Shown here: positions 26,515 through 29,297 of the stretch, piece by piece
Layout of the letters: each line of letters begins with the position of its first letter
Position numbering within the stretch: the stretch's first letter is position 1
Assembly: GCF_008642355.1 (NCBI RefSeq)
Contig: NZ_CP029193.1
Span: forward strand, 1,202,001 to 1,266,000
Reading direction: 5' to 3'
Length of the DNA: 64,000 bases
From: Streptomyces venezuelae
GTDB taxonomy: Bacteria > Actinomycetota > Actinomycetes > Streptomycetales > Streptomycetaceae
Notes under the pieces: generated by a model
The model's input: only the letters and a program-made list of their open reading frames with translations
Told to the model about the DNA's origin: nothing
The model's database searches: none
Position numbers and translations under genes: made by a program

Positions 26515-27903
26515 ATGGATCTCGGCGTGCGCTGGAAGCTGCACGGCGACGGGCGCACCCCCGCGCCCGGAGCCGTCGTCCGTCCCGACGAGCGGCTCTC
26601 CTGGCCGCGCACCTTCGGGCTCGGCGCCCAGCACGTGGTCGCGATGTTCGGCGCGTCGTTCGTGGCCCCCGTGCTCATGGGCCTCGACCCGAACCTCGCG
26701 ATCATGATGTCGGGCGTCGCCACCGTCATCTTCCTGCTCGCCACGCGCGGCCGGGTCCCCAGCTACCTGGGCTGTTCGCTCTCCTTCGTGGGTGTCGCCG
26801 CGGTCATCCGGGCGCAGGGCGGCTCCAGCGCGACGGTGACCGGCGCGGTCTTCGTCGTCGGCGCCGCGCTGTTCCTGGTGGGCCTCGCCGTGCAGAAGTT
26901 CGGGGCGCGGATCATCCATGCCGCGATGCCGCCGATCGTGACCGGCGCGGTCGTCATGCTGATCGGCTTCAACCTGGCGCCGGTCACGGCGTCGACGTAC
27001 TGGCCGCAGGACCAGTGGACGGCGCTCCTGGTGATGCTCTTCACCGGCCTCGCCGTGGTGTGCCTGCGCGGCTTCTGGTCGCGCATCGCGATCTTCCTCG
27101 GCCTGATCTTCGGGTACGGCATCTCCTGGGTCTTCGACCAGGTCTTCGGCAAGATCCACTCGGCGGACGCCTCGGGCAAGGTCGTCGACCACTGGCGTCT
27201 GGACCTGTCCGCCGTGGGCGACGCCGACTGGATCGGCCTGCCCTCCTTCCACGCGCCGAGCTTCGAATGGTCGGCGATCCTCGTGGCGCTGCCCGTCGTC
27301 ATCGCGCTGATCGCCGAGAACGCGGGCCACGTGAAGGCCGTCGGCGAGATGACCGGGGACAACCTCGACGACAAGCTCGGCACGGCGATCTCCGCCGACG
27401 GCGCCGCCTCCATGCTCTCCACCGCGGTCGGCGGCCCGCCCAACACCACGTACTCCGAGAACATCGGCGTGATGGCCGCGACCCGCGTCTACTCCACGGC
27501 CGCGTACTGGGCGGCGGCCTGCTTCGCCCTGCTCTTCGGGCTCTGCCCCAAGTTCGGCGCGGTCGTGGCCGCGATCCCCGGCGGCGTGCTCGGCGGCATC
27601 ACCGTCATCCTGTACGGCATGATCGGCCTGCTCGGCGCGCAGATCTGGATCAACGCCAAGGTCGACCTGCGCAATCCGCTGAACCTGGTGCCGGCCGCCG
27701 CGGGCATCATCATCGGCGTCGGCGGCGTCTCCCTGAAGTTCACCGACACCTTCCAGCTGAGCGGCATCGCGCTCGGCACGATCGTCGTCATCACGGGCTA
27801 CCACGTGCTGCGCGCCTTCGCCCCCGCCCACCTCAAGTCCCAGGAACCGCTCCTGGATTCGGGCACGTCGACGTACGACGAGGAGAACCGCGAGCGCGGC
27901 TGA
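26515..27903 (+). CDS. Uracil-xanthine permease (NCS2 family)
   Basis: The protein has 462 residues with about fourteen hydrophobic segments. The NCS2 signatures are present: ALIAENAGHVKAVGEMTGDN, with the substrate-binding Glu in helix 8, and GGPPNTTYSENIGVMAATRV in helix 10. SYLGCSLSFVG marks helix 3. The pattern is closer to uracil (UraA/RutG-like) than to urate carriers. It imports a nucleobase with protons for salvage. The ribosome site is weak. TAACAT about 70 bases upstream could be a -10 element, but no -35 partner is visible. Confidence 0.9.
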   Translation: MDLGVRWKLHGDGRTPAPGAVVRPDERLSWPRTFGLGAQHVVAMFGASFVAPVLMGLDPNLAIMMSGVATVIFLLATRGRVPSYLGCSLSFVGVAAVIRAQGGSSATVTGAVFVVGAALFLVGLAVQKFGARIIHAAMPPIVTGAVVMLIGFNLAPVTASTYWPQDQWTALLVMLFTGLAVVCLRGFWSRIAIFLGLIFGYGISWVFDQVFGKIHSADASGKVVDHWRLDLSAVGDADWIGLPSFHAPSFEWSAILVALPVVIALIAENAGHVKAVGEMTGDNLDDKLGTAISADGAASMLSTAVGGPPNTTYSENIGVMAATRVYSTAAYWAAACFALLFGLCPKFGAVVAAIPGGVLGGITVILYGMIGLLGAQIWINAKVDLRNPLNLVPAAAGIIIGVGGVSLKFTDTFQLSGIALGTIVVITGYHVLRAFAPAHLKSQEPLLDSGTSTYDEENRERG

Positions 27904-27908
27904 AACCG

Positions 27909-27939
27909 TTGGACGTGGTGCGTCACGCCTGATTAGGGT
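27909..27939 (+). promoter_or_regulatory. Promoter of the exporter leader
   Basis: TTGGAC (27909-27914) and TAGGGT (27934-27939) are 19 bases apart. The ATG of the leader ORF begins 7 bases after the -10 element, so the leader transcript is probably leaderless. Confidence 0.45.
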
Positions 27940-27946
27940 GCGCACC

Positions 27947-28015
27947 ATGTCCACTCCCGAGTCCGACAGACTCACGCCACCGGTCGTCCGGTGGCTTCTC
28001 GCGCCACAGCGCTGA
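27947..28015 (+). CDS. 22-residue leader peptide of the chloramphenicol exporter
   Basis: ATG at 27947 opens MSTPESDRLTPPVVRWLLAP followed by QR and TGA. It lies 91 bases before the exporter start and contains, within its codons, two segments of a GCCACCGG/CCGGTGGC hairpin. Leader peptides of this kind let a drug-stalled ribosome change downstream RNA folding, as known for other chloramphenicol resistance genes. No function of the peptide itself is implied. It is short, but the coincidence of start, stop and hairpins makes it credible. Confidence 0.6.
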   Translation: MSTPESDRLTPPVVRWLLAPQR

Positions 28016-28077
28016 CACGCCGGCCCCCGGGGCCGCCGCCGCCACCGGATCACCGCCCCCGTGCCCTGATCCCTTTT
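27976..28077 (+). promoter_or_regulatory. Attenuator with three competing RNA segments
   Basis: Segment 1 GCCACCGG (27976-27983) pairs with segment 2 CCGGTGGC (27988-27995) over a TCGT loop. Segment 3 (28041-28048) is identical to segment 1, so 2 can pair with 3 instead. Segment 3 runs into GGATCA (28047-28052), which pairs with TGATCC (28067-28072) ahead of CTTTT, a terminator-like hairpin. Segment 2:3 pairing would disturb that hairpin. Confidence 0.6.
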
Positions 28078-28106
28078 GATCCACATCGTGGTTGCGGAGT
28101 CCTGCT

Positions 28107-29297
28107 GTGCCCTTTGCCCTGTATCTCCTCGGGCTCGCCGTTTTCGCGCAAGGAACCTCGGAGTTCATGCTGTCGGGGCTGATCCCCGACATCTCGCGCG
28201 ACCTGTCCGTCACCGTTCCGGCCGCGGGCCATCTGACCTCGGCGTTCGCCGTGGGAATGATCGTCGGCGCACCGCTGATGGCCCTTCTGAGCCGCCGCTT
28301 CGCCCGCCGGAGCGCGCTCCTGGTCTTCCTCGTCGCCTTCCTGCTCGTCCACGTCGTCGGCGCGCTCACCACGAGCTTCGCCGTGCTGCTCGTGACCCGC
28401 GTCGTCGGCGCCCTCGCCAACGCCGGGTTCCTCGCCGTCGCGCTGGTCACCGCCACGGACATGGTCGAGCCCGACGCCAAGGGGCGCGCCACGTCCGCGC
28501 TGCTCGGCGGCGTCACCGTCGCCTGTGTCGCGGGCGTGCCCGCGGGCGCGCTGCTCGGCGAGGCCTGGGGCTGGCGCTCCGCGTTCTGGGCGGTGGCCCT
28601 GCTCTCGCTGCCCGCCGTGCTCGCCATCGCGCGAGCCGTGCCGGCCGGGGCGCCCGACCTCGGTTCCCCGCGCGCGCTCGGGGAGCTGCGGGCGCTGCGC
28701 GGCCCGCGGCTCCTCGTGACGCTGCTGCTCGGCGCGCTGGTCAACGGCTCGACGTTCTGCACGTTCACCTACCTCTCCCCCGTCGTCACGCGCGTCTCCG
28801 GTCTCGGCTCGGGCTGGGTGCCCGCGATGCTCGCCCTGTTCGGCGTCGGCTCGTTCGTGGGCGTCACCGCGGCCGGGCGCCTCGCCGACGTACGGCCCAT
28901 GCCGGTCCTGGTGTTCGGCTCGCTCGCGCTGCTCACCGGGTGGGCCCTGTTCGCGGTGACGGCGTCGCGTCCGGTGGCGGTGGTCGTCCTGGTCCTCGTC
29001 CAGGGGGCCCTGTCGTTCGGCGTCGGTTCCACGCTGATCGCGCGGGCCCTGTACGCGGCGGCGGAGGAGGCCCCCCACCTGGCGGGCGGGTTCGCGACGG
29101 CCGCGTTCAACGTGGGCGGCGCCCTCGGCCCGTGGCTCGGCGGCCTCGCGATCTCCGCGGGGCTGGGATACCGCTCGCCGCTCTGGCTCAGCGCGGCGCT
29201 GGTGGCGGTGGCGCTGGCCGTCGGAGGTACGGCGCTCGGGCTCGCCGGAAGGCGCCGCTCGCCGACGGAGGTCACCGAGGCCCGCGCCCGCTCGTAG
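28107..29297 (+). CDS. Cmx/CmrA-type chloramphenicol efflux MFS transporter
   Basis: The protein has 396 residues with twelve predicted membrane segments. GTG at 28107 is chosen because GGAG lies 7 bases upstream; a TTG five codons earlier is in frame. The N-terminus LYLLGLAVFAQGTSEFMLSG and GMIVGAPLMALLSRRFARR match, from memory, the Cml/CmlR exporters of Streptomyces and the Cmx proteins of Corynebacterium. DHA1-type drug-proton antiport of chloramphenicol is the likely role. The attenuator upstream supports induction by a ribosome-targeting drug. Another phenicol-like or endogenous substrate is possible. Confidence 0.87.
   Translation: MPFALYLLGLAVFAQGTSEFMLSGLIPDISRDLSVTVPAAGHLTSAFAVGMIVGAPLMALLSRRFARRSALLVFLVAFLLVHVVGALTTSFAVLLVTRVVGALANAGFLAVALVTATDMVEPDAKGRATSALLGGVTVACVAGVPAGALLGEAWGWRSAFWAVALLSLPAVLAIARAVPAGAPDLGSPRALGELRALRGPRLLVTLLLGALVNGSTFCTFTYLSPVVTRVSGLGSGWVPAMLALFGVGSFVGVTAAGRLADVRPMPVLVFGSLALLTGWALFAVTASRPVAVVVLVLVQGALSFGVGSTLIARALYAAAEEAPHLAGGFATAAFNVGGALGPWLGGLAISAGLGYRSPLWLSAALVAVALAVGGTALGLAGRRRSPTEVTEARARS

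Follow-up and report, generated by a model that had tools for sequence, protein, structure and literature searches.

The leader of cat-86 is a chloramphenicol attenuator of the same sort as that of cmlA, and in trp-type attenuators mutually exclusive RNA pairings are set by the position of the ribosome. Chloramphenicol-sensing leaders are already known from cat, cmlA and fexA, and the listed chloramphenicol attenuators are translational (PMC5418344). The leader of cmlA is a short open reading frame (ORF) before a chloramphenicol-resistance gene with KNAD as its arrest motif, and arrest by the drug is described as working best when the nascent chain carries Ala, Ser or Thr (PMC10192921). Leader ORFs combined with alternative terminator and anti-terminator forms are described for bmrCD, ermK, vmlR, lmrC and the wblC/whiB7 upstream ORF. 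Here, we analyzed a 64,000-nucleotide (nt) stretch of the Streptomyces venezuelae genome (assembly GCF_008642355.1, contig NZ_CP029193.1, positions 1,202,001 to 1,266,000 of the forward strand; hereafter the window), in which a conserved leader ORF precedes the gene for a Cmx/CmrA-family chloramphenicol exporter. The host genome comprises 8.02 Mb in a single contig.

The window leader resembles that of CmlA in being a short ORF before a chloramphenicol-resistance gene with an Ala/Ser/Thr-type residue near the presumed stall, and its S-D followed by R recalls the A-D followed by K of CmlA. The two differ in that the CmlA peptide does not start with SPE(A/S) and in that the window leader is predicted to be leaderless. 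Whereas the attenuators listed for this drug are translational, a terminator is predicted for the window and a hidden ribosome site is not. The bmrCD, ermK, vmlR, lmrC and wblC/whiB7 systems involve other genes, peptides and RNA, and the window terminator is weak and non-canonical. A trp-type attenuator senses uncharged tRNA, whereas the signal predicted here is a drug-arrested nascent peptide. The exporter family and the start of the leader peptide are shared with cmx of Corynebacterium and cmr/cmrA of Rhodococcus, with plasmid leaders reading MSSPESDR (pTP10), MTSPESDR (R. fascians) and MSSPKASRL (R. qingshengii). The pTP10 and R. fascians leaders have a GGGG/CCCC hairpin, unlike the window, and the R. 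qingshengii leader is of the window's type. A search with leader-peptide strings and for cmr, cmx and cml attenuation, in a literature collection with few subscription journals, yielded no publication recognized as dealing with this leader. Papers on cmr and cmx from the 1990s may mention leader-mediated induction.

We consider it probable, at roughly 65%, that the leader is a chloramphenicol sensor in which a ribosome stalls near codon 7, pairing of RNA segment 2 with segment 3 breaks a weak terminator, and the exporter is turned on. The elements involved are the following, with positions counted from the first letter of the window:

27902..27939, forward strand: promoter predicted from the sequence, with an A-rich box GAAACC (27902-27907), a -35-like TTGGAC (27909-27914) and a -10-like TAGGGT (27934-27939).

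27947..28015, forward strand: leader ORF MSTPESDRLTPPVVRWLLAPQR with its stop, predicted to be leaderless, 22 codons, from ATG at 27947 to TGA at 28013-28015.

27962..27970, forward strand: predicted stall site, with codon 6 (Ser) penultimate, codon 7 (Asp) in the P site and codon 8 (AGA, Arg) in the A site.

27976..27983, forward strand: segment 1, GCCACCGG, starting at nt 30 of the leader.

27988..27995, forward strand: segment 2, CCGGTGGC.

28041..28048, forward strand: segment 3, GCCACCGG, identical to segment 1 and pairing with segment 2 by complementarity and folding.

28047..28077, forward strand: weak terminator-like hairpin from sequence and folding, GGATCA (28047-28052) with TGATCC (28067-28072), then CTTTT (28073-28077).

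28094..28099, forward strand: ribosome-binding site GCGGAG of the exporter, assigned by eye and common to most of the 62 leaders listed.

28107..29297, forward strand: gene for a Cmx/CmrA-family chloramphenicol efflux transporter of the major facilitator superfamily, GTG start, 396 amino acids, assigned with NCBIfam NF033135.

Both arms of the GCCACCGG/CCGGTGGC hairpin lie inside the leader ORF, and segment 3 overlaps GGATCA at 28047-28052. In the absence of drug, the ribosome would pass, the hairpin of segments 1 and 2 (1:2) would form, and segment 3 would be left for GGATCA/TGATCC and its CTTTT tail; many transcripts would then end prematurely near 28077. A drug-bound ribosome would stall near codon 7 and cover the first half of segment 1, which would free segment 2 to pair with segment 3 (2:3). 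This pairing would break the GGATCA/TGATCC terminator and turn the exporter on.

The exporter, whose gene starts with GTG at 28107, scores 526.6 bits against NF033135 (residues 1-372 of 396 aligned) and, by this score above the curated cut-off of 400, belongs to the Cmx/CmrA chloramphenicol efflux family. On a quick tree of 122 exporter proteins it groups with the exporter of Streptomyces atriruber, at 89% identity. This agrees with a first-pass annotation of the DNA, which had placed an attenuator before a chloramphenicol exporter and whose ORF, segments, GGATCA/TGATCC hairpin, CTTTT and exporter start all read back base for base at their coordinates.

To place the leader among its relatives, 110 homologous loci were fetched. 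The selection took the 80 top-ranking of 475 confirmed candidates and the 30 top-ranking entries of a second Streptomyces exporter list, so the set is one of close relatives. Upstream sequences are distinct at 105 of them, the window's own included, and all 105 carry a leader starting M-x-x-P-(E/K/D), usually MSSPEASR. The count is made up of 98 leaders found by the first filter, four with K or D at residue 5 (L026, L041, L042 and L071) and three more (L017, L059 and L110). The genera represented are Streptomyces, Nonomuraea, Microtetraspora, Amycolatopsis, Micromonospora, Rhodococcus and others. Finer comparisons used 99 leaders, for which a filter demanded one of seven residues at position 3, P or C at 4, E, K or D at 5 and R or W at 8, so that conservation at these positions is partly by construction; residue 6 and the choice of Arg codon at codon 8 were left free. 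L017, L059 and L110 fall outside this filter and count solely among the 105, and three misassigned rows (L049, L052 and L062) were dropped, their true leaders being recovered in a wider set of 120. Judged by these sequence comparisons, the leader is a conserved regulatory element.

The filter left residue 6 free, yet 84 of the 99 leaders have Ala there and the other 15 have Ser, encoded by seven codons (counts after subtraction of two false rows). In the 120 distinct leaders it is Ala in 94 and Ser in 26 and Pro4 is invariant, with Pro4 constrained by the filters and residue 6 preset to Ala or Ser in the 26 rows added to this set. The presence of Ala or Ser in 99 of 99 leaders matches the rule for chloramphenicol arrest (PMC10192921), and the stall would be expected at that residue. 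By analogy with KNAD of CmlA, a drug-dependent stall would involve Ala or Ser at residue 6 together with Asp or Ser at residue 7. For the window peptide, M-S-T-P-E-S-D-R, we infer a stall that holds Asp7 in the P site, with Arg8 as the following residue.

The 22-codon ORF of the first-pass annotation is present in the window, but its length is not a shared property: the ORF has nine codons in 51 of the 99 leaders, as in MSSPEASRR followed by a stop, and a sense codon stands at position 10 in the other 48. The stop of the nine-codon leaders is TAG in 50 of 51 cases and gives the first base of segment 1. On the exporter tree a minimum of 10 changes between stop and run-on is required, at least 5 of them forced by the starred branches (L176 and L186 were mislabelled as run-on in this count), and the extension thus appears to be freely gained and lost. 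By this comparison the 22-codon length is a lineage-specific run-on through the hairpin; about the first 8 codons are conserved, and what counts is the initial stretch of 7 to 9 codons. The string PPVVRWL was accordingly rejected as a conserved peptide, as it is the hairpin read in frame, with those tree changes and a variable ORF end. Codon 11 is CCA in all 48 run-on leaders, compared with 4.66% of the Pro codons of the 99 exporter genes, a bias that pairing to the T of TGG accounts for.

The three-segment switch is well supported. Segment 1, and with it the hairpin, begins at nt 30 in 96 of the 99 leaders, and one of the three exceptions (L070) carries a matched double change from CACCG/CGGTG to CATCG/CGATG. 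Segment 3 recurs in the form GCCRCCGGATC at variable spacing. In the 62 loci taken into the pairing counts (51 distinct triples), segments 2 and 3 form on average 9.0 of 10 pairs, and 9 of 2000 permutations attain the observed pair total; because 28 seeds complementary to segment 2 were used to locate segment 3, part of the 2:3 pairing in these counts, and in the folding counts on 62 leaders below, is built in. Clear double changes run from C-G to T-A in L021 and L031 and from T-A to C-G in L064. Of 200 dinucleotide shuffles, only 1 attains the folding strength of 27948-28085 (z -2.94). The first-pass annotation had suggested looking for covariation in homologues, and segments 2 and 3 are indeed conserved and covary, also in the cmx-type leaders described below. 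A search of 27700-28300 against Rfam 15 gave one match, on the opposite strand, with E = 4 and 10.6 bits compared with a gathering score of 45, and hence no family.

Folding links the switch to the position of the ribosome. A ribosome with codon 7 in the P site would keep nt 1 to 34 from pairing. For this edge, at nt 34, the probability of 2:3 pairing exceeds 0.5 in 61 of 62 leaders (mean 0.95), compared with 20 of 62 when free (0.34) and 6 of 62 with the edge at nt 45 (0.28). In the window, the terminator probability is 0.00-0.01 for edges at nt 30-35, in keeping with codon 7 in the P site, and is back to 0.6-1.0 from nt 37. The model thus predicts an anti-terminator for an edge up to nt 35 and the return of the terminator from nt 37 on. 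Twelve of twelve members of two clades (6 of the window's, 6 of another) have their lowest terminator probability at about nt 33-34 and reach at least 0.94 at nt 42. A ribosome over nt 50-80, as at the run-on stop, gives 1.00 for the 1:2 hairpin and 0.89 for the terminator in the window. Mutually exclusive hairpins set by ribosome position are therefore borne out by folding together with the compensatory changes. A stall on segment 1 itself, as proposed in the first-pass annotation, was rejected: 51 of 99 ORFs end at codon 10, where segment 1 begins, the terminator is restored with a ribosome there, and folding favours an upstream stall at about codon 7. Such a stall would not work because the 3' half of segment 1 joins the extended anti-terminator. 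Of the attenuation layout as a whole, the leader-peptide switch with three mutually exclusive segments stands, and the stall site moves upstream.

The leader is closely tied to its exporter. A pattern of the leader with segment 1 matched 58 of 199 Streptomyces genomes, once in each, and the reversed pattern matched none. Of these matches, 54 lie upstream of an exporter homologue, 50 by coordinates on the same strand and four (L151, L153, L154 and L155) by fetching; three others (G038, G079 and G125) lie near no listed exporter and appear to be chance matches. One further match is an orphan (L152) that retains promoter, leader, hairpin, segment 3 and the beginning of the ribosome site without an exporter behind them; the downstream ORF is one that we take to encode a trypsin-like protease-type protein. 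Across the class, the leader was found at 23 of 30 exporter loci (22 plus L189; L180-L182 repeat loci already counted). It was not found at L192 and L195-L200, six of which are 41-48% identical to the query and one of which (L196) is partial, its upstream end perhaps not reached. A phylum-wide pattern requiring TAG at codon 10 matched 3 of 246 genomes, few of which belong to the class, and one of the matches is a Streptomyces locus already known.

Twelve leaders have the same peptide start with another hairpin, including those of Corynebacterium striatum pTP10 and the Rhodococcus fascians plasmid. The exporters behind these cmx-type leaders (L111, L112, L114, L115, L117 and L171-L177) form one group with support 98. 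Here, 95.7% of 70 cells are paired between segments 2 and 3, with two-sided changes at two pairs, compared with 4.2-58.8% for slid partners, and in L117 the same column is altered in all three segments together. Pairing of segment 2 at least 35 nt downstream, with any partner, exceeds 0.6 in 10 of 12 leaders with the edge at nt 34 versus 2 of 12 free, and such far-downstream pairing reaches at least 0.5 in 3 of 12 free leaders. By eye, a largely conserved GTGGTGACGAGACG-like stretch lies about segment 3, and its CGAGA/TCTCG-like hairpin becomes CAAGA/TCTTG in L111 and L172.

Several results weigh against a terminator governed by a stalled ribosome. A strict terminator scan (loops of 3-8, 5 T in 8) finds none at the window leader, whose hairpin has a loop of 14 and four T, and the GGATCA/TGATCC hairpin alone amounts to -5.7 kcal/mol. 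Folded ribosome-free, the window leader divides evenly between the two states (0.50/0.50; the terminator share is 0.61 when the 3' end is placed slightly differently), and all five relatives tested give the terminator 0.20 or less. The off state must therefore rest on co-transcriptional folding or translation. The window terminator is also low with edges at nt 24 and 27 (0.02 and 0.32), which makes for a soft lower bound of the stall site, and in a third clade (6 leaders) the assumed terminator is weak, absent or otherwise behaving. With regard to covariation, 37 of the 99 leaders lie outside the 2:3 counts, the pairing is broken in some cells (at two of the outer positions, for instance, in 7 of 51 triples), and the permutations take no account of shared descent. 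Finally, among the 62 of 99 leaders that are up to 260 nt long, a stall at nt 34 makes the ribosome site more accessible than in the free state by over 0.2 in 13 and closes it in 4. A general terminator finder run over all leaders was left unused, since GC-rich RNA yields hairpins nearly everywhere and makes it uninformative; its pair constraint also let in non-standard closing pairs.

The last of these points bears on the strongest rival, translation attenuation, in which the same stall and 2:3 switch would hide and release the ribosome site of the exporter, as in cat and cmlA. We regard it as possible but rather unlikely. Besides those 13 leaders, it would account for the ribosome site being only 0.00-0.10 open, ribosome-free, in most short-leader relatives with PPALRWL run-ons, and for CUCCGC, complementary to GCGGAG, directly before segment 3 in L092, L044, L018, L020 and relatives; it would also be in keeping with the translational attenuators listed for this drug. 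In the window, however, the site hardly changes (0.22 open when free, 0.28 with the stall at nt 34 and 0.26 at nt 45), so that folding gives no release of the cat/cmlA style here, although some relatives differ. Of 62 leaders, 7 are more open with the stall at nt 34 than at nt 45 by over 0.2 and 4 are less open, and among the cmx-type leaders a stall at nt 34 opens the site by at least 0.1 in 2 of 12 (L117 and L172). Because the stall hardly exposes the ribosome site, transcription termination is a plausible output at the window locus. The output step may nevertheless differ between clades, given the 13 leaders that open their site and the mostly deep pairing in the PPALRWL run-on relatives. 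A pairing of AGACTC codons with GGAGTC of the ribosome site, judged by eye, was dropped as it does not follow the AGACGC leaders.

Termination could also depend on Rho, with the C-rich, G-poor leader past the ORF loading the factor and the 2:3 pairing or the ribosome limiting access. The lack of a canonical terminator in the strict scan would suit this, and 51 of 98 leaders rank, for GC skew, in the bottom tenth of their respective loci, the window's below every background sample, with a background that was not limited to untranslated leaders, which may be C-rich anyway. Rho would leave the position of segment 3 beside a hairpin unexplained, and we think this reading improbable.

Equally, the leader might sense another signal, such as other peptidyl-transferase drugs or a scarcity of the tRNA reading AGA, with the exporter part of a wider response. 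What favours this is codon 8, which is AGA in 96 and AGG in 3 of the 99 leaders, although these make up 0.56% and 3.24% of the Arg codons in the same 99 exporter genes; for the near-universality of AGA (27968-27970 in the window) no explanation was found. Beyond the 99, codon 8 is CGC in L186 and TTA in L059, whose leader lies 530 nt upstream of the exporter match and is the sole close leader without Arg8, having Leu instead. TTA is the rarest Leu codon of streptomycetes and is read by the bldA tRNA, which hints once more at a preference for a slow codon here. In addition, wblC is said to answer many translation inhibitors by attenuation (PMC12421871). Yet cmx-type leaders can also have Thr, Glu or Lys at position 8 and still keep Ala or Ser at residue 6, L186 has its CGC, and the leader goes with a single exporter family (54 of 58) and was not found at 7 of 30 class-wide loci. 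A signal other than chloramphenicol is, in our estimate, quite unlikely.

Turning to the promoter, the -10-like TAGGGT ends 7 nt ahead of the leader ATG, and the mRNA is probably leaderless on the basis of its sequence, as the first-pass annotation had held. In favour of this, a T(A/T)nnnT hexamer begins 12 or 13 nt upstream of the leader start in 94 of 101 rows (two false rows included); against it, a strict sigma-70 promoter scan found none at the window leader. Position frequencies ahead of the leaders put an A-rich box at -44 to -42, with the -10-like hexamer beginning at -13/-12. A 462-amino-acid membrane-protein-like ORF (26515-27903) ends 5 bases ahead of the -35-like element, and the entire control region is thereby squeezed into about 200 bases. 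The WblC/WhiB7 promoter box is given as GAAAWY (PMC7157823), to which GAAACC of the window is alike but imperfect, with C at the W position. An A-rich box ahead of the -35 element in most leaders, as at WblC/WhiB7 promoters, hints at double control of the exporter. That the leader is conserved but inert, with regulation by such a promoter alone, would fit this box and the listing of an S. coelicolor exporter, CmlR2, in the WblC regulon (PMC7157823), but it would leave the Ala/Ser6 restriction, the rare codons, the fixed hairpin position and the compensatory changes unexplained and is highly improbable.

We tentatively propose, at somewhat less than even odds, that an old actinobacteria-wide arrest peptide, M-S-S-P-E-(A/S), translated from leaderless mRNA, outlived its RNA and now serves at least two dissimilar switches, the GCCACCGG type and the GGGGC type, with the ribosome edge at about nt 34 as a shared yardstick and, in the GCCACCGG type, AGA in the A site as a timing input. 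The edge near nt 34 and the conserved AGA codon are sharp, testable claims. If the chloramphenicol sensor is real, Cmx/CmrA exporters, some of them on corynebacterial and rhodococcal plasmids, would have one drug-sensing leader in common, and its presence in a genome could be scored straight from the sequence. Such a leader would provide a test bed for how chloramphenicol reads nascent peptides and for regulation from leaderless mRNA, and it would show how a peptide sensor is kept while its RNA switch is replaced.

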